DNA of 64,000 nucleotides from positions 186,001 through 250,000 of the forward strand of contig WION01000035.1 of the NCBI GenBank assembly GCA_015039365.1. The letters run 5' to 3'. Position numbers and translations under genes: made by a program. The number at the start of each line of letters is the position of its first letter. Position 1 is the first letter of the stretch. The DNA is from Amanita rubescens. Taxonomy: Eukaryota > Basidiomycota > Agaricomycetes > Agaricales > Amanitaceae. This document shows, one piece after another, positions 17,586-50,277 of the stretch. Below the pieces are notes generated by a model. The model saw nothing but the letters and a program-made list of their open reading frames with translations. It was not told where the DNA came from and made no database searches.

Positions 17586-20500
17586 ATGACAGATGCCACC
17601 AGTGGACTTCCATCGAGTAATCTAATATGATGTCCTGGCATCCCCACTGTCTGACTGGTACATATCAGGTACAGATGAGACACATGTTAAAATGCTTAAG
17701 GAACGATACCTATGCCCACATTTCTGTATCCTTATCATAGGGAGGGCTAATGCAGGCAAGACAACCATCCTTGAGAAGGTTTGTGGTGTAGCAAAGGGAA
17801 CAAAGCCCATGGTGTATGGCAAAGATGGTAAGTCAGGCTGAACATTGTGCTTCTTCTACATATCAAGTTTCCTGTAGGCCAAGAACTGGAAGTGTCTGAA
17901 TCTCATCTGATGCCATCATTTGAGGTGCACTTAATGATAATGAATGGATGTGCCCACTCATATGCTTAATAACAGAGAGGCCTACATGATATTGAACATC
18001 AGATTACATACCCTGGGAGTAACTTTATCTTCCATGACTCTCAAGGGTTTGAATCTGGTTCTACTGATGAATTGGTGGTTGCTTGGAATTTCATTGAGAA
18101 GAAGTCTGCAGAAACTGAGTTGAAAAATCAGTTGCATGCAATTTGGTATCCTGATTTATTCCTTTACGTGGCTGGTTGACCAAGTGCCCTGTAGGTACTG
18201 CATACCCATGGACAGCCCTCGTCCCATGCCACCTGCAGAACTTGATTTTTTCAATAAAGGGACTGGCAGAGGTAAGTCCTAATGAATTCATATCTCATCT
18301 CACTGGTTTGGAGAGATTGTTTACCCTTGACTATTGTTACTTCCTTTGCATATACTAAGTACTAATCTATAGTGTACTGACTAGTAAATATTTCCTTTAC
18401 AGTTCCTTTGGTGGTTATATTCACTAAGTTTGATGGTCAAATAGCCAGTGAATTTGTCAACTTGAGTGATGCAAAGGATGAAGATAAGTGGGAGAGAGCC
18501 AGGGAAATTGCTGAAATTAATTTTCAGAAAGTTTATCTTCCTAAAGTTTTGGATGCCAAATATCCTCCCAAGGCATATGTGCGATTGGAAGGCAAGTGGA
18601 GATTTCCTTCCTGAAAAATGGGGGTAATTTACTCAATGTTGTTTCATAGACATGGACTTACCAGAGAAGAATTGTGCTGAATTAACTCAGCAGACTGCTG
18701 ATGCAATAAATGATGACAGCATACATCAGCTGTTTGTTTCAACACAGATGAACAATCTGGACCTTTCTGTTAAATCTGCACTTCAGTGAGGGTCACATTC
18801 AAAATGTCACTTACTAACATTGACATTGTTCAGACATGTCCTGAAATATAAACATTGGACATGGGATAAGGTCATTGTCATAGTTTTTTCAAAATTTCCA
18901 CATTTCTGGGTATGCATTTCTGTCAAGCTGCACATTGGCATAAGAAATTTGAATGGCAATAGGTGGACAGGGAGGTAGGCAGTCTTCATATGAAATGACA
19001 AATACTTGCAAAAGGTGCATCAGGAGGTAAATAACAATCTAATGCCTTTACATGACAACAAGATTAGTCCTACTTCAGATAGCCAAAAAACAACTGAGTG
19101 AAACACAGGTTGGTCATTACCATATTCTTGGTGGCAGGATCTGATGTTATTGATATCAGTGGGTAAGTGTCATTGAACATGAACAAGCATGGGTCTCGGA
19201 TATATTGTCTCATAACAACAGTTTGTGAGTAATGCTTCCTATTGGGATTAACAATCTTGTCCCATAATCTACAGCAAGTGAGTGATATGATTCAATTTTG
19301 ATTTTTGGTAAATGATCACATGGCACATCATATGACCAATAGCAAGTGAGTTAATATACCATTATAAGCAGACTTATCAATTCAGTCTCTTGTGGACAGG
19401 GAGTGAGTAATACAACACTGCCCCAGAGCATGTCTGACCTGCTTAAAGAAAGTAAGCAGCAATGATATTTGTGCAGTTTATCCAAAGACATGTAACTAAA
19501 TGAACAATAGAAAGTTGGTGACATAATGTTATCTGAAAGAAAATCTCTACAAACATCATTGAATTAATAACAGAAAGTAAGTGACATTTCCTTTCTGTCT
19601 GTTTATAGACATTCCATCTTGTCCCAAAACAACAGACAGTAAATATTTCTCCTTTTAAAAGCCCCTTCACAAGCTATCACAAAATAAACAGGATGTATGT
19701 GATACTTTTGTGGGATGTGAATATCATATGAAATCCTATGGCTGCTGGCAAAAGGGAGTCAGTGACATTTTTTCTTTCTTCCCAACTCATTATGATAATT
19801 CCATTCTAAAAGGAAGTGAGTGATCTGGCCACTCTGCTGTGAGACAAGTTGGGCACATTCCTTTGTTCTACAGATTGTGAGTGATATTGCAAGTCTTGTG
19901 AAAAGTGGTGAAATCACCTCTTTTCCTATGAACATAGAAGGTTAGCAACATCATGGTCATGGTGATTTAAAATGACCTTATCACTATGGCCAATAGTATG
20001 TAAGTAGCATTGCAAATATTTCTGAAAAGAGGTTCTATGATTTTTTCCTGATGACTCATAGGATGTGAGCAACTGTATGATGTTTGTAGAAGCAGTTTCA
20101 TCACATCTTTTCTTATGACCAACAGGGGGTGAGTGACATTCAAGCCCATCTGGTGAAAGGCAGTCTCATCACATCTTTCTTTTCCTATGACCAACAGCAA
20201 GTGAGTGGCATTGCACATTTTGTGAAAAGCCATATCATCACACCTTTTCCTATGACCAACAGTTGGTGAGTGACTCACATGACACAATTTAGTCTCATCA
20301 AATCTTATCCTATGATAAACAGTCTGTGAGTGACATGCACATTTTGTGATCACCACATCTTTTCCTATGACCAAAAGTTTGTGAGTGACATTGCACATTT
20401 GTGAAAGGCAGTCTCATCACATATTTTCCTATGAGCAGCAGTTTGTGAGCAACATTGCACATTTTGTGAAAGATCATAGTCACATCACATTTTTTCATAT

Positions 20501-23500
20501 GACCAGCAACCAGTGCGTGACAAGTTTGTGAAAGATACTCACATCACATGTTTTCTTATGACCTTGAACAGCCTGTGAGTGACATTGTACATTTTGTGGA
20601 AGGCAGTCAAATCACAGCTTTTCCTATGATGAACAGCCTGTGAGTGACATTGCACATTTTGTGAAAGGCAGCCTCACCACATCTTTTCCTATAACCAACA
20701 GGTGGTGAGTGACCTTGCATTTATGAAAGGCACTCATGTTCATATGATCAAAAGTCTGTGAGTGAGATTGCACATTTTGTAAAAGGCAGTCTCATCACAT
20801 CTTTTCCTGACACAGATTGTGAGTGACATGACACATTTTGTGAGAGGGAGTCTCATTGCATGTATGTATGACAAACAGCGAGTGAGCAACACTAGTAGCA
20901 CATTTGGCCTCATCACATCTCATACAACCAAAAGTCTGTGAGCAACATTGAAGATTTCTATGGAAGGCAGTCTCATCACCTCTTTTCCTATGACCAACAG
21001 CTTGTGAGTGACATGGCACATTTTGTGAAAGGCAGTCTCATTACACATTTGTATGATGAACAGCGAGTGAGCAACACTAGTAGCACATTTTGTGAAAGGC
21101 AGTCTCATTACATTTTTTCCTATTACCAACAGCAAGTGAGTGACATTGCACAGTTTGTGAAAGGTAGTCCCACCACATCTTTCCCTATGATCAACAGGTG
21201 GTGAGTGACATTACACATTTTGTGAAAGGGAACAGTAGGCTCATCACATCTTTTCCTATGGCCAACAGGAAGTGAGTGAAATTGCACATTTTGTGCAAGG
21301 CAGTCCCATCACATCTTTTCCTATGACCAACAGCTGGTGAGTGACATTGCACATTTTGCTCGGGTGTCCCATCACATCTTTTCCTATGACCAACAGGAAG
21401 TGAGTGACATTGCACATTTTGTGAAAGGCAGTCATATCACATCTTTTCATATGACCAACAGCAAGTGAGTGACACTGCACATTTTGTGAAAAGCAGTCTC
21501 ATCACATCTTGTCCTATGACAAACAGAGAGTGAATGACATTGCACATTTTGTGAAAGGCAGTCTCACTACAGTTTTTCCCATGACCAATAGCTTGTGAGT
21601 GACATTGCACATTTGTGAAAGTCAGTCTCATCACATCTTTTCTGTCCAGGAGTGGGTGAGTGACATTGCACATTTTTTGAAAGGTAATTTCATCACATTT
21701 TTTTCTCATGACCAACAGTTGGTGAGTGGCATTGCACATTTTGTGGGGGGCAGTCTCATTACATCTTTGCCTTTGATCAACAGTTTGTGAGTGGCATTGT
21801 GCAGTGTGTGGAAGGCAGTCTCATCACATCTTTTCCTATGAGCAACAGAGAGTGAGTGACATTGCAAATTTTGTGAAAGGCAGTCTCATCACATATTTTC
21901 CTATAATCAACAGGGAGTGAGTGACACTGCACATTTTGTGAAAGCCACATCTTTTCCTATAACCAACAGGAAGTGAGTGACATTGCACATTTTGTGAAAG
22001 TTAGTCTCATCACTCTTTTCCATGACCAACAGGTGGTGAGTGACATTGCACATGTTGTGAAAGTTGGCCTGGTCACATTTTTCCTATGACCAACAGACAG
22101 TGAGTGACATTGCACATTCTGTGAAAGGCAGTCTCATCCCATTTTTTCCTGTGACAAGGGAGTGAGTGATGTTGCACATGTTGCAAACAGCAATCTCATC
22201 ACATCTTGTCCTATGACCAACAGCGAGTGAGTTACATTGCTCATTTTGCACAGTCTTGTCACATCTTTTCCTACTATGCCCAACAGGTGGTTAGTGACAT
22301 TGCACTTGCAAAAGGTGTCCCATCACATCCTTTCCTATCATGACCAATAGCAAGTGAGTGACATTGCACATTTTGTGAAAGGTGTCTCATCCTATGACCA
22401 ACAGTCTGTGAGTGACATTGCACATTTTGTGAAAGGCATTCCAATCACATTTTTTCCTATGGCCAACAGTTGGTGAGCACATTGCACCTTTTGTGAAGGG
22501 TGGTCTTATTACATTTTTTCCTATGATCAACAGTCTGTGAGTGACATTGCATATTTTTTGAAAGCAGTCTCATCACATCTTTTCTTAACCAACAGGATGT
22601 GAGTGACATTGCCCATTTTGTGAAAGTCAATCTCACCACATCTTTTCCAATGACCAATGGCAGATGGTGAGTTGCATTGCATATTTTATGAAAGGCAATC
22701 TCATCACATCTTCCTATGACCAACAGCAAGTGAGTGACATTGCATATTTTCAAGTGAAAGGCAGTTTCATTACATTTTTTCTTATGATCAACAGGAAGTG
22801 AGTGACATTGCACATTTCATGAAAGGCAGTCTCATTGCATCTTCTCCTATGACTAACAGATGGTGAGTACATTGTACAGTTTGGGAAAGGGGTCCCACAT
22901 CTTATCCTGTGACCAACAGTCTGTGAGTGACATTGCACATTTTGTGAAGGGCAATCTCATCACATCTTGTCCTATGACCAACAGCGAGTGAGCCTTGACA
23001 TTGCACATTTTGTGAAAGGCAGTCTCATCACATCTCCTATGAGCAGAAGTTGGTGAGCACCATTGCACATTTTGTGAAAGGCAGTCACATCATATGTATT
23101 TTTCGTATGACCAACAGCAAGTGAGTGACATTGCACATTTTGTGAAAGGCAGTCCCATCACATTTTTTGTATGACCAACAGCAAGTGAGTGATGTTGCAC
23201 ATTTTGTGAAAGGTAGTCCCAACACATGTTTTCCTACTATAACAGGTGGTGAATGTCATTGCACATTTTGTGAAAGGTGTCTTATCACATCTTTTCCTAT
23301 GACTAACAGGGAGTGAGTGATATTGCACATTTTGTGAAAGGCAGTCTCATCACATATCTATGACCAACAGGAGGTGAGTGACATCACACATATTGTGAAA
23401 GGCAGTCATAGTATCACATCTTTTTATATGACCAACAGCAAGTGAGTAACATTGCACATTTTGTTAAAGGCAGTCATATCACATTTTTTCATACTGCAAC

Positions 23501-24588
23501 CAACAGCAAGTAAGTGACATTACAAAAGGCAGTCTCATCTGAACATCTTTTCCTATTACCAATAGTTTGTCAGTGACATTGCACATTTTATGAAAGGCAG
23601 TCTCATCCCAGTCACATCTTTTCTTATGACCAACAGCAAGTGAGTGAAATTGCACATTTTCAAGTGAATTGCAGAGTCACATCACCTCTTTTTCTATGAC
23701 CAACAGCAAGTGAGTGACATTGCTATTTTGTGAAAAGGCAGTCTCATTAGTACATTGTTTCCTATGACCAACAGTTTGTGAGTGATATTGCACATTTGGT
23801 GAAAGGCAGTCTCATCACATTTTTTCCTATGACCAACAGTGTGTGAGTGACATTACACATTTTGTGAAAGGCAACCTCTTCACATCTTTTCCTTTGATGC
23901 AGCTTGTGAGTGACATTGCAATTTTTTTCTGACCTGCATTCTCAGCATACTTCAATTCATGAATGCTTGATGTATCATTATATCAGAAAGTGAGCATCTT
24001 GCCATATCTTTTTTATGTCTTCCTTTTACATTTTATCATCATAGATTGTAAGATTCCATTTCAACTGACATGTGATCATTCATCTAACTTATATCACTCT
24101 ACAGGTGAGTGATGCTGGTTCATGAGGTATCAATTTCATATCAGTTTGCATGCTAGTGTGTAGGTCTCATAATACATTGGATGCCTTACTATTCTACCTT
24201 ATGACTAGGATGAACTTTTCTCCATGTTTGGGCATGGGCAAAGGAATTTTGCAGTCAAGGTATTTTTGTACTTTTTTTGGGGGGTGGTACACAGCTGACT
24301 CTGCCATTGCACCAAGCCCACTGATTGCCAAGTCTTAGTTTGTAAATTGCTCTTTTTCATTTACTGCATTTATACTTAAACCTTCAAGCAATTATCATCA
24401 TTGCCAAGCTATCCTTTTGGATCAATAAACCATTTCTACCATCAGTCACAGAAGCCTTGGATCAATTTAAGCAAAAAGGCTATGTTCAGAAGCTGAAGAC
24501 TCAAATTACACCAGACCTTATGGACTCTGGTCATCAAGATTTTGTCACATTACTGTATAGGAATGTCACTCACATTGATGGTATGTAG
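17586..24588 (+). CDS. P-loop GTPase whose 3' half contains an array of about 78 putative single-codon exons
   Basis: A septin/AIG1-like fungal G-domain protein. Exons by hand are 17586-17616, 17669-17827, 17878-17924, 17976-18145, 18195-18271, 18403-18591 (GC donor), 18650-18785, 18834-18909, 18963-18974, 19015-19026 and 19079-19108. About 78 triplets follow from 19160 to 24047, then 24209-24259 and a last exon from about 24389 to the TAG at 24586. G1 is IGRANAGKTT (17737-17766), G3 is DSQGFESG, and G4 is TKFD near 18423. A hydrophobic VIVIVFSKFPHFW follows, then VDRE, VHQE and IAKKQLSETQ exons, the microexon run, DELFSMFGHGQRNFAVK and a tail with SVTEALDQFKQKGYVQKL. All exons around the array are phase 0. 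The junction into the last exon needs phase 1 and is unresolved. The whole gene is CpG-depleted. Nucleotide binding is well supported; cellular role is unknown, and the microexon model needs cDNA. Confidence 0.75.
19109..24208 (+). repeat. Tandem array of intron-like units separated by variable triplets
   Basis: About 78 units, each running from a 5' splice site (usually GTGAGTGACATTGCACA) to a 3' splice site (usually CCTATGACCAACAG), with exactly 3 nt before the next GTGAGT. Intron-like parts are 46-81 nt. First triplets are TGG 19160, TTT 19222, CAA 19275, CAA 19343, GGA 19400, AAA 19449; last are TGT 23840, CTT 23903, AAA 23987, ATT 24045. One position (21650-21655) may be 6 nt, and the unit around 19607-19638 could be read as a 30-nt in-phase exon. 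Units between about 20.1 and 23.9 kb are clearly similar to one another. Units at 19.1-20.0 kb and after 23.9 kb share little besides splice sites. At 24102-24106 an acceptor CAG directly abuts a donor GTGAGT. Confidence 0.95.
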
Positions 24589-45983: not shown

Positions 45984-48900
45984 ATGGCTGGCAAGTCAGA
46001 AGGTTTTTTTCAAGGGGCCCACCACTTCAATGTGATAGGTGGCCAGTTTATAGAGGTTCTTTGGTTTAAATGTATCTTATGTGGAGTCTGTTAATAACCC
46101 TCACTCAAGATAAATCATTTGAATGATCAACCTTCTTCAAACACTGCTTTACCACCTTTACCACCTTTGAAGCTACCTAGTGCTTCCTTTACAGGTCGTT
46201 ATGAATACTTGCAAAGACTGAAGATCCATTTTACCTCCTGTAATGAGGGAAAAAGGAAAGTATTCCTCTTGCATGGTCTAGGAGGCATTGGCAAAACTCA
46301 AATTTGCCTTAAATTCATTGAAGAAAATCCTGAATTGTGAGTGTACTGACACTGACCAATTGCATGTACAATGAATAAATTATTCAAGATTTTTGGATGT
46401 ATTCTGGATTGATGCTTCTTCAGAAAGTAACATTGAGCTTGGACTCAAGCAGATAGCAGAAGCCTACAATGCCTCTTTAGAGGCAAAAGCATCAACTAGA
46501 TCTATCCTCCAATGGATTTCCAACAGAGCCAAGTGGCTTATTGTCTATGATGGTGCAGATGGACAATACTCAGTGGTTGAGAAAAATCTCCCATCTGGAA
46601 AGGCAGGAAATATCTTGATAACTAGCAGAAATGCTGAATTAAAGAGAATCACACTGAACAAGAATTCAATGGAGGTTGTTGACATGGCAAATGAAGAGGC
46701 TGTTTCCTTGCTTTTACAATCAGCCATGGTTGAAGAAGCACCTGACTGCACCTCAGCTGATATGGCCAGGAAGCTAGTATCAGAATTGGGTGGAATTCCA
46801 CTTGCCATTGACCAAGCAGGGGGTTATATGCATTCCTGTGGTTGTGGCATTGATGATTATCTGGAATTGTATGCAAAGCATAGAGATGAATTAATGTCAA
46901 GTCCAAAGTTCAGAGGTGCATCAGATTATGGAAATTTTACATATGGAACATGGGATGTTGCAATGGATGAAATTGAGAGGATTGCTGGAAAGGGCATAGA
47001 AAGAGAAGCTCATGCAGCACAAAATGCCATCAATCTATTGAGAATCTTTGCATTTCTGGATCATGCCAATATACCAGAAGAATTATTCAAGAATGCTGCT
47101 GAGAACTACATGAAAAGAAATGTAGACAAAGAAGAAGAGAATGGTCTTCCATTATCAGTGAAACTATTGGATGATAAGACCTTGTTCTTGAGTGAGGAAG
47201 GTGTATGGGATAGACTTCACTTTCTTGAAGGGATTCAAGTCTTGCTATCTTTTTCCTTGATCAAATCCCAGAATCACCTGTATTCAATGCATCTATTAGT
47301 GAATGCATGGAACAGGAGCAGGCTACCAAAGGGAGAAATTTCAGATTTATATCAGAAAGCAAGAGCAGTGTTAGCTTGCTCAATAGGTCTTGACAATGAC
47401 AATGATAACTATTCATTTTGTCAAATGCTTGTACCACATCTTAGGTCAAGCACTTTACATGGATTACAAATGAATTTGGAGAGCACCTATTATGATGATG
47501 AGTGTGAAAGATTTTCATCTCTTTATCATGATATGGGTGACTGGAATGCAAGGGAAAAGTTGTTGCAGACAATAGTAAATGAGAGAAAGGCAAGGCTTGG
47601 GTACCATCACTTACAGACTCTTACAAGCATGACCAATTTGGCAAACCTATACAATCATCAAAGAAGATGGGATGTGGGAGAGAAACTGCTCTTGGAAGTG
47701 ATGGATATAAGCAACTCAAAACTTGGGCCAGAGGATCCATGCACTCTTTGGAGCATGAGGAGTTTGGCAAAGATATACCATGATCAAGGAAGATGGGATG
47801 AGACAGAAAAGCTGCATTTGGAAGTGACGAATATAAGAAAAACAAAGCTTGGGGTGGACCATCCAAGTACTCTGCAGAGCATGAGCAATCTGGCACACAT
47901 ATACACTCACCAAGGAAGATGGGATGTGGCAGAGAAGCTGCAGTTGGAAGTGGTGAATGTAACAAAAACAAAGTTTGGGCTAGACTATCCAGATACTCTT
48001 GAGAGCATGAACAGTTTGGCACACATATACAGTGATCAAGGAAGATGGGATGTGGCAGAGAAGCTGCAGTTGGAAGTGGTGAATGTAACAAAAACAAACC
48101 CTAGGCTGGATCATCCACACACTCTCAGGAGCATGATCAATTTGGCAAACACATACAGTAAGCAAGGGAGAAGGGATGAGGCAGAGAAGCTACAGTTGGA
48201 AGTGATGACTACAAGTAAAACAAAGCTTGGGTTGGACCATCCAGTCACTCTTGAGAGTATGAACAGTTTGGCAAACACATACAGTGATCAAGGGAGATGG
48301 GATGATGCAGTGAAGCTGCAGTTGGAAGTGATGAATGCAAGAAAATTGAAGCTTGGGCTGGACCATCCAGAAACTCTTGAGAGTATGAACAGTTTGGCAA
48401 ACACATACAGTGATCAAGGGAGATGGGATGATGCAGAAAAGCTGTATTTAGATGTGATTGATACAAGTAAAACAAAGCTTGGGTTGAACCATCAAGACAC
48501 TCTTAGGAGTATGAACAAGTTGGAAAACATATATCATGATCAAGGAAGATGGGATGAGGCAGAGAAGCTGTGTTTGGAAGTGATGAATGCAAGAAAAACA
48601 AAGCTTGGGCTGGACCATCCAGACACCCTTAAGACTTGGAGCATCATGAACAGTTTGGCACACATATACAGTCGTCAAGGAAGATGGGATGAGGCTGAGA
48701 AGCTATATTTAGAAGTGATCAATACAAGTAAAACAAAGCTTGGGTTGGACCATCCAGACACTCTTGGGAGCATGAACAACTTGGCAAAGATGTACCATGA
48801 TCAAGGAATATGGGATGATGCAAAGAAGCTGCATTTGGAAGTACTGAATAATAATAAAATGAAGCTTGGGCTGGACCATCCAGACACTCTTGAGAGCATG

Positions 48901-50277
48901 AACAGTTTGGCACACATATACACTCATCAAGGAAGATGGGATGATGCAGAGAAGCTGTATCTAGAAGTGATCAATACAAGTAAAATAAAGCTTGGGTTGG
49001 ACCATCCAGACACTCTTGGGAGCATGAACAAGTTGGCAAAGTTATATCATGATAAAAGAAGATGGGATGAGGCAGAGAAGCTACATTTGGAAGTGATGAA
49101 TGCAAGAAAAACAAAGCTTGGGCTGGACCATCCAGACACTCTTGGGAGCATGAACAATTTGGCACACATATACACTCATCAAGAAAGATGGGATGATGCA
49201 GAGAAGCTGTATCTAGAAGTGATCAATACAAGTAAAATAAAGCTTGGGTTGGACCATCCAGACACTCTTGGGAGCATGAACAAGTTGGCAAAGATATATC
49301 ATGATAAAAGAAGATGGGATGAGGCAGAGAAGCTACATTTGGAAGTGATGAATGCAAGAAAATCAAAGCTTGGGCTGGACCATCCAGACACTCTTGGGAG
49401 CATGAACAATTTGGCACACATATACACTCATCAAGAAAGATGGGATGATGCAGAGAAGCTGTATCTAGAAGTGATCAATACAAGTAAAATAAAGCTTGGG
49501 TTGGACCATCCAGACACTCTTGGGAGCATGGACAAGTTGGCAAAGATATATCATGATAAAGGAAGATGGGATGAGGCAGAGAAGCTACATTTGGAAGTGA
49601 TGAATGCAAGAAAATCAAAGCTTGGGCTGGACCATCCAGACACTCTTGGGAGCATGAACAATTTGGCAAAGATATATCATAATAAAGGCAGATGGGATGA
49701 AGCAGAGAAGCTGCATTTGGAAGTGATAAATACAAGAAAAGCAAAGCTTGGACAGGACCATCCAGACACTCTTGGGAGCATGAACAATTTGGCTGACATG
49801 TACAATCATCAAGGAAGATGGGATGAGGCAGAGAAGCTGCAGTTGGAAGTGATGAATATAGGAAAAACAAATCTTGGGTTAGACCATCCAAAGATGCATA
49901 CTATCATGGCCACCTTGGCTGAAATCTACATGAGTCAGAAAAAATGGGATGAGGCAGAGAAGTTGTGGGTAGAAGTGATGGAAAAAAGCAAAACAAAGCT
50001 TGGGCTAGACCATCCATACACTCTAGACTGCATGGCCAATTTGGCATTGACATATAGGGGTCAGGAAAAATGGGATGAAGCACAGGCCTTGTTATCCCAT
50101 GCTGTTGAGCATATGCAACGAGCTCTGGGGCATCAACACCCAACTACCCTTCATTTTGTGGAAAAACTTGATGATCTTTCCAAAGCATGGGCTAAGATGG
50201 ATTCACAAGTGATAGCACCATTGGTATGCCTTGCAGCTTACACTTATATGCTTACAATTCACTTACACTTGATATAG
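45984..50277 (+). CDS. STAND/NLR-like protein: N-terminal GAHHF motif, NB-ARC NTPase, about 21 TPR units
   Basis: Exons 45984-46055, 46110-46336 and 46389-50277 join in frame. The first exon encodes MAGKSEGFFQGAHHFNVIGG, resembling the short N-terminal motif seen on many Agaricomycete STAND proteins. The NTPase has Walker A VFLLHGLGGIGKTQ, a Walker-B-like WLIVYDGAD, LITSRN and GGIPLAIDQAGGYM (GLPL). From about residue 480 roughly 21 TPR units of 42 residues follow, of kinesin-light-chain type (for example GRWDEAEKLHLEVMNARK, LGLDHPDTLGSMNNLAHIY). Middle units are almost identical at DNA level in a 252-bp two-unit period. Fungal proteins of this plan are thought to be self/non-self or stress receptors; ligand and effector here are unknown. 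The gene is strongly CpG-depleted but its frame is intact. Confidence 0.85.
47580..50140 (+). repeat. 126-bp TPR-coding tandem repeats with a 252-bp higher-order period
   Basis: About 21 units of 42 codons. Between about 48700 and 49650 alternate units (LAHIY type and LAKIY type) recur as a 252-bp dimer, nearly identical three to four times. One unit near 48628-48640 carries a 9-bp insertion giving LKTWSIMN in place of L-SMN. Outer units are more diverged. Confidence 0.9.

Follow-up and report, generated by a model that had tools for sequence, protein, structure and literature searches.

The window analysed here is a stretch of 64,000 nucleotides (nt) from Amanita rubescens (assembly GCA_015039365.1, contig WION01000035.1, positions 186,001 to 250,000), and its own numbering is used throughout. 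On its forward strand it carries a gene of an agaric P-loop GTPase family which contains, between 19109 and 24208, an array of short units in which a single triplet stands between an acceptor AG and a donor GT. We conclude, with a probability of roughly 0.88, that this array codes for protein and is spliced, with every codon forming an exon of its own. An earlier note on this DNA had taken each triplet for an exon and each intervening unit for an intron, and that proposal is supported by proteins collinear with the triplets, by the lack of stop codons among the triplets of exact units, by the predominance of 3-nt exons when exon length is left free, and by constraint on the splice sites.

A chain model in which exon length was free between 0 and 12 nt divided the window array into 80 exons, including 74 of 3 nt, three of 6 nt, and one each of 7, 11, and 0 nt. 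Three hand edits were then made: the 7-nt AAAGTTG was read as AAA followed by the donor GTTGGT, the 11-nt and the empty exon were dropped, and TGT at 24157 was added. The resulting 79 tiny exons add up to 246 nt, or 82 codons; 76 measure 3 nt and three measure 6 nt, and the array contains 80 introns of 46-109 nt (median 61 nt). The array described in the earlier note is therefore real, although its count of about 78 exons becomes 79; its lower intron bound of 46 nt stands, whereas its upper bound of 81 nt is exceeded by the longest intron, and its spacing of always 3 nt, perhaps 6 nt once, gives way to three 6-nt exons, two of which are ambiguous. The note had also placed the array start after the ten-codon exon IAKKQLSETQ, upstream of which lies one more single-codon exon, GAG; among 20 array loci, 14 have either GAG or GTG at the corresponding position.

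The spacing is specific to the array and to its strand. The motif [CT]AG-N(k)-GT[AG]AG occurs on the forward strand of 19109-24208 60 times with k=3, three times with k=6, and once with k=0, with no match at any other k from 0 to 12, and the reverse strand of the same region holds two matches in total. In the remaining 58.9 kb of the window, k=3 gives six forward-strand and three reverse-strand matches, compared with 0-6 and 0-3, respectively, for other spacers. Tandem Repeats Finder detects the repeat only from 20098, and the 3-nt spacing already holds from 19160, in a leader of 17 single-codon exons (Table 1) whose residues are alike among paralogs and whose introns are diverged yet related to the 62-nt intron of the tandem unit.

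The window model of the gene consists of 92 exons, with 10 upstream of the array, the 79 tiny exons, and three downstream, and splicing all of them yields a single open frame of 463 codons with zero stops. All introns are GT-AG except one GC-AG intron at 18592. P0001, the public model of this gene, is 100% identical in the matched pieces and provided the start codon that we adopted; it ends at 18786, upstream of the array.

The earlier note had set out in advance the case that would refute it, namely a minisatellite lying in one large intron, with 19108 spliced directly to 24209. On that view, the AG-NNN-GT pattern would be incidental to a repeat that arose within the intron. The middle of the array is indeed a tandem repeat, and public models either stop before the array (P0001) or skip it (P0089). 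The genome (75.7 Mb) was searched and 29 loci were inspected: the window, 20 loci picked by a unit match, and eight picked by an exon match. From 21 loci, we collected 524 exact 65-nt units, requiring GTGAG and AG and at least 50 of 62 intron sites matching the consensus. Mean entropy was 1.51 bits in the triplet columns vs 0.17 bits in the 62 intron columns (maximum 0.56), with the low intron value partly built in by the consensus-match selection of units. None of the 524 triplets is a stop, whereas permutation of bases within triplet positions and loci gave a mean of 16.5 stops and a minimum of seven in 2000 trials. NAG, a form that would place a second acceptor next to the donor, does not occur among the triplets. 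A minisatellite within an intron would have triplets like the rest of its unit and stops at the chance level, and neither was found.

Splice sites and spacing point the same way. In three older locus pairs (window/L030, L019/L024, and L029/L031), splice-site positions changed at 17 of 1770 sites (0.96%) and intron interiors at 448 of 11044 (4.06%; p=1.5e-13), and the difference persists at p=3e-6 when the splice-site count is doubled to allow for the consensus-based choice of sites. The predicted splice sites are constrained, diverging about four times more slowly than intron interiors. The 3-nt spacing is also kept at loci whose introns have strongly diverged.

Proteins that spell the codons provide further evidence. 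On JGI contigs of 1.4-1.9 kb, several proteins extend beyond the point where gene models stop, and four of them (P0073, P0004, P0033, and P0039) were threaded through the inspected loci; P0117, P0032, and P0068, also on short JGI contigs, extend past the G domain. P0073, from a 1669-nt contig, covers the segment in full as well as the C-terminal exon. Its 40 residues WTLHGKGKLKLSLFGHDIFHNYYNLNTRRFSEILNIRSEI follow WTLHGKGQLKLTLFGLDMFHNYFNIDTKRFNRLLELRTQI of L029, one codon per exon and in order, with 25 identical and 37 positive positions, and in 40 consecutive exons of L031, a near copy of L029, the corresponding numbers are 26 and 38. Among 200 shuffles, at most 10 (L029) and nine (L031) positions were identical. 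When longer introns were allowed, the best of the 29 loci reached 26/40, compared with at most 13 in 30 shuffles. The L029 threading calls Q at position 8, where a GC-donor reading (AAA|GCAAGT) gives K by eye, as in P0073; the count was kept at 25. For the 17-codon leader, the best locus was L011, with 14/17 identities for P0004 and 12/17 for P0033 (at most nine in 30 shuffles), and P0033 matches the window leader at 11/17. Past the leader, P0004 continues for more than 50 residues in an array-like stretch rich in G, R, L, Q, and H.

P0073, P0004, and P0033, all of which come from relatives rather than from A. rubescens, thus run through the flanking exons and then spell the single-codon exons in order, which does not fit a minisatellite in a single intron. 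The lack of introns suggests that the JGI contigs behind these three proteins are complementary DNA (cDNA), the record itself giving only a source name. Further protein-database searches for transcript-like sequences returned only P0004, P0033, P0007, and again P0073. As far as such sequence tests reach, the protein threading, the stop count, the strict spacing, and the splice-site constraint led us to reject the single-intron minisatellite, whose probability we regard as very small. A contiguous exon elsewhere in the genome was also considered as the source of P0004 and P0039 and rejected, since no match was found whereas other family exons gave at least 150 places each; the P0004 segment had zero contiguous matches in the genome, although such an empty answer is weak evidence.

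The single-codon layout extends over the family. One 65-nt unit used as a query had 575 matches in the genome, those listed being spread over many contigs. As regards dispersal in unrelated genes, a mark of introner-like elements, the 20 listed places that were fetched all match this gene family, with 40 of 486 candidates scored. Exon 5 (VPLVVIFTKFDG) and the C-terminal exon each matched at least 150 scored places, some of which may be two haplotypes of one gene. At 97 of the 150 listed exon 5 places, a listed C-terminal exon follows downstream in the same orientation within 15 kb, and 53 have no partner among the matches listed. Distances in the 97 paired places range from 2.5 to 14 kb (median 4.3 kb) with none closer, as one would expect were arrays common in the family. 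All 28 additional loci inspected carry the single-codon pattern. In 18 of the 20 unit-picked loci, the leader resembles W F E Q G K K E T D .. E I. Y (L F E K G K in L019 and L024); L026 contains the end of the leader and L025 starts within the array. The free-length model was applied to 18 of the 29 loci, with L023, L025, L026, and L027 left out and L029 and L031-L036 analysed separately. When chained, L025 and L027 gave no path, and L026 is interrupted by a non-array stretch, so that its off-length exons in the chain are meaningless; for these three the evidence comes from the locus comparison and the unit profile. At the 18 loci, the model has 1041 exons, of which 958 measure 3 nt and 18 measure 6 nt. 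Another 23 were modelled as 7 nt, 16 of which are AAAGTTG, one per locus in 16 of the 18, readable as AAA|GTTGGT. The remaining off-length exons concentrate in L010, L021, and L013.

Seven of the eight exon-picked loci (L029 and L031-L036) contain chains of 24-56 single-codon exons, with one stop in 287 chain codons. The strict motif gave 18-41 matches per locus at a spacer of 3 and 0-2 at any other; on the reverse strand, there were zero matches at a spacer of 3 and 0-1 at others. Beyond what the earlier note had proposed, the predicted single-codon exons are a trait of the family, and their codons are hypervariable. Old and young arrays also share their kind of intron. Array introns aligned to the unit beat all 200 of their own shuffles in 19 of 38 cases in L029, 19 of 22 in L036, and 9 of 16 in the window leader, whereas this was the case for none of the 10 ordinary introns of the window gene. 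The whole array is most simply described as a series of copies of one ancestral intron, successive copies being separated by a single codon.

Comparisons within ten chosen locus pairs reveal how the codons change. Four recent pairs differ at 21% (L012/L020), 35% (L011/L020), 41% (L016/L022), and 40% (L016/L017) of triplet bases vs 0.3-1.3% of intron positions, with 0-1 synonymous and 7-30 nonsynonymous codon changes. In three pairs among L009, L015, and L017, triplet bases differ by 2.6-6.0% and introns by 0.1-0.3%. Changed codons carry about two base differences on average (41 changes in 19 codons in L011/L020, 55 in 31 in L016/L022), which speaks for whole-unit replacement rather than point mutation. 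Codon words recur among the 18 loci, although near-copies are not independent: 16 repeated four-codon words were found (shuffle mean 4.6, maximum 11), and 54 repeated three-codon words (mean 30.4, maximum 51). Shuffling of near-identical repeats, as in fungal NOD-like receptors, may occur here: change is concentrated in the triplets, and codon words recur. Misassembly of near-identical repeats could have added false reorderings.

These data bear on the possibility that introners were inserted between the successive codons of a once contiguous exon, in which case no codon turnover would be needed. Introner-like elements are described as multiplying introns in some fungi (PMC4457414), the introns here are near-identical and the codons varied, and the array introns are akin to each other while the ordinary introns of the gene are not. 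However, duplicates whose introns are at least 98.7% alike already differ at between 26% (7 of 27) and 69% (31 of 45) of aligned codons, so that codon changes must postdate the arrays. It would also lack an explanation why insertions fell at intervals of precisely 3 nt. We consider this origin improbable.

A more restricted alternative is that codon-by-codon splicing is confined to the leader and the older arrays, the homogeneous 65-base-pair (bp) part of the window subfamily being a degenerate expansion that is skipped or makes the transcript non-functional. The matching transcript-like support is limited to the leader and to older paralogs, and off-length exons occur at some tandem loci. Against this, P0004 runs far beyond the leader, the triplets of homogeneous units lack stops, and half of the modelled loci (9 of 18) have no off-length exons besides AAAGTTG. 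Moreover, the window frame re-enters the downstream exons correctly, and old and young arrays are built from the same kind of intron. Such partial splicing seems to us unlikely.

Several observations weigh against per-codon splicing of the whole array, in addition to the selection effect on unit entropy. The codon-matching transcript-like support covers the leader and older paralogs and none of the window's own hypervariable codons. P0039 threads no inspected locus above its shuffles (11-12/35 vs up to 12, 29 loci), and its tail has zero contiguous matches in the genome, an empty answer that is weak evidence; its own locus may lie outside the 29 inspected. P0073 lacks about 19 G-domain residues present in relatives, and P0089 by eye joins the array flanks without the array, although it is possibly a prediction. 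Triplets of the three older pairs diverge no more slowly than their introns (4.5% vs 4.1%, p=0.59), which suggests that codon identity is not strongly conserved there. Only 9 of the 18 modelled loci are free of off-length exons, the ambiguous AAAGTTG aside; L010 and L021 have several exons of 1, 2, or 4 nt, stops occur in the chains of L013 (two) and L034 (one), and exon 5 of L014 contains a stop codon. These off-length exons and stops suggest that some copies have decayed or are misassembled.

If each codon is indeed an exon, the spliceosome would have to remove about 80 short introns, probably by intron definition and one at a time, with each 3-nt exon joining a growing upstream exon. The product would be an 82-residue segment between the G domain and the conserved C-terminal exon. 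The array probably grew long ago through tandem duplication of one intron plus one codon, an old origin indicated by the members with diverged introns, which keep long chains with introns still akin to the window unit. In the window subfamily, the intron-plus-codon unit would have been duplicated in tandem again, recently. Near-identical introns would allow unequal crossing-over and gene conversion within and between loci, and such recombination could delete, copy, reorder, or import single codons with the frame intact, so that the segment would diverge much faster than its introns. Selection would retain splice sites and sense codons and would tolerate, perhaps favour, new residues.

We lean slightly towards a still broader interpretation, codon-cassette diversification, in which the variable segment would have a recognition-like role and the homogenised introns would serve as a shared recombination substrate over at least 21 loci of a young subfamily, with single codons gained, lost, reordered, and exchanged between genes, possibly together with variable exon inclusion. 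Such combinatorial splicing, in which phase-0 single-codon exons are variably skipped or included and one gene yields many peptides, would add to the per-codon reading rather than replace it. With lengths of 3 or 6 nt, the 79 tiny exons of the window can be skipped without loss of frame, and flatworm micro-exon genes are described as able to vary their proteins through exon skipping (PMC7653826). The transcript-like evidence consists of single proteins, among which P0073 has all 40 exons in order relative to L029 and L031, and combinatorial splicing appears doubtful, if conceivable.

The host gene belongs to a large agaric P-loop GTPase family, with 1375 homologs at E ≤0.001, the best 120 of which were looked at. 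Scans of four family proteins against Pfam gave a weak, sub-threshold MMR_HSR1 match in three and no NACHT or NB-ARC match, and Pfam and PDB searches of family proteins returned no informative domain. Across 22 loci, exon 5 has a proportion of nonsynonymous differences (pN) of 0.131 and of synonymous differences (pS) of 0.281, with pN below pS in 216 of 231 pairs, and thus looks to be under purifying selection. Several public models of the family in other agarics (P0036, P0074, P0107, and others) end at or near FPHFW or its equivalent. These ends adjoin the start of the single-codon exons in A. rubescens, so the layout may be widespread but hidden; it would explain why the public models halt at or before FPHFW, the remainder being invisible to gene finders.

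Micro-exon genes are defined by at least seven exons, at least half of them micro-exons (<70 nt and divisible by three), in runs of at least four (PMC7653826). With 92 exons and 79 tiny ones of 3 or 6 nt in one run, the window gene falls under this definition by its letter, as a structural class and with no claim of common descent. Like the flatworm genes, it has consecutive tiny exons divisible by three, is hard to annotate, and belongs to one family expanded by tandem duplication; unlike them, its array exons are nearly all single codons, the family forming runs of 24 to about 90, its introns are repeats of each other, and its host is a fungus (PMC7653826). Aphid bicycle genes, and the megacycle gene with its microexons numbering over 100, similarly encode fast-evolving proteins from very many small exons, but their internal exons are almost all phase 2 whereas the Amanita exons are phase-0 single codons within a repeating intron-plus-codon unit (PMC9168663). 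Very short isolated exons are known from Arabidopsis APC11 (1 nt; PMC4674806), from plant microexons of 1-15 nt (PMC8831610), and from the lipS genes of the fungus Dactylellina, with two 3-nt exons (PMC5639578). These indicate that exons of 1-3 nt can be included, by experiment for 1 nt in plants and by sequence in the fungus, but unlike those in Amanita they form no arrays and are not reported as hypervariable in the portions available.

The repeats of fungal NOD-like receptors, which evolve in concert, are shuffled within and between members and diversify at a few variable positions, as is proposed for the Amanita arrays. There, however, the repeats are protein motifs, whereas the Amanita repeat is an intron absent from the protein and only one codon per unit enters the protein. 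Introner-like elements (PMC4457414) likewise multiply near-identical introns in a genome, and tandem duplication can create a new intron (PMC4974935), but the Amanita copies are arranged head to tail within a single gene family, and a single codon separates each from the next. We call the system new in kind because its unit is an intron plus one codon, because nearly every exon spells one codon, and because the codon is the varying part. In the open-licence literature on micro-exons, including that on fungi and basidiomycetes, no array of single-codon exons was found in the portions available, in agreement with the earlier note, to which a gene with dozens of back-to-back 3-nt exons appeared undescribed. 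The word GTPase is absent from the available main text of the A. rubescens genome paper (PMC7550596). A coding triplet that varies while the intron is conserved reverses the normal rule and suggests a route by which recombination could diversify part of a protein and leave the reading frame intact. The arrays would also test the lower limit of exon size and how the spliceosome handles back-to-back introns 3 nt apart.

Table 1. Features of the GTPase gene and its array of single-codon exons in the window (positions as in the window).
Feature	Position	Strand	Content and remarks
Exons 1-4	17692-17827, 17878-17924, 17976-18145, 18195-18271	+	P-loop GRANAGKTT in the first; open translation, P0001
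Exon 5	18403-18591	+	VPLVVIFTKFDG..RLE, followed by the GC-AG intron
Exon 6	18650-18785	+	DMDLPEKNC..SVKSAL
Exon	18834-18909	+	HVLKYKHWTWDKVIVIVFSKFPHFW; with the VDRE exon, co-linear by eye with P0004 and P0033
Exon	18963-18974	+	VDRE
Single-codon exon	19024-19026	+	GAG (E); by eye, E in P0033 and V in P0004 at that place
Ten-codon exon	19079-19108	+	IAKKQLSETQ; its donor starts the array
Array	19109-24208	+	Chain model with hand edits
Leader	19160-20128	+	W F Q Q G K K K T D G E I K Y D G; chain model
Tandem part	20129-23905	+	Units of about 65 bp, 62-nt intron GTGAGTGACATTGCACATTTTGTGAAAGGCAGTCTCATCACATCTTTTCCTATGACCAACAG plus one variable codon; Tandem Repeats Finder, 21-locus unit profile
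Six-nt exon	20507-20512	+	CAACCA
Exon of 6 nt, or 3 nt using the second AG	21650-21655	+	GAGTGG
Exon of 6 nt, or 3 nt using the second AG	23047-23052	+	AAGTTG
Array tail	23987-24159	+	AAA 23987, ATT 24045, zero-length AG|GTGAGT junction 24104/24105, TGT 24157 (by hand)
Downstream exon	24209-24259	+	DELFSMFGHGQRNFAVK; in frame with the array
Downstream exon	24317-24341	+	PTDCQVLV
Last exon	24389-24580	+	SIIIIAKLSFWINKPF..THID; similar to P0073 354-418

Some minor features of the arrays were also recorded. The zero-length AG|GTGAGT junction in the array tail sits within the longest array intron of the window (109 nt), and the order of I, zero-length junction, one codon, and next exon is the same by eye in L029. 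This AG|GTRAG junction near the array end has the form of a recursive splice site, and the strict counts include one or two zero-length AG|GTRAG sites in six of the seven other loci (L029, L031, and L033-L036), the position being verified for L029 only, by eye. GC donors (AAA|GCAAGT) apparently also occur inside arrays, for example in L019, L024, and L029 by eye. The arrays of L010, L013, and L021 mix modelled exons of 1, 2, 4, or 7 nt with 3-nt exons, as decaying copies or assembly errors might. L026 contains two array pieces that resemble parts of the L028 array and lie about 2.9 kb apart, possibly because of an insertion.

Elsewhere in the window, positions 47626-50046 hold nineteen copies of a 126-bp (42-residue) repeat with 81% matches, which resembles the kinesin-light-chain type of tetratricopeptide (TPR) repeat; it is a candidate highly conserved repeat domain of a fungal NLR-like protein. 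The reverse strand at 14.4-16.3 kb presumably carries, judging by motif, a serine hydroxymethyltransferase gene, an ordinary neighbour.

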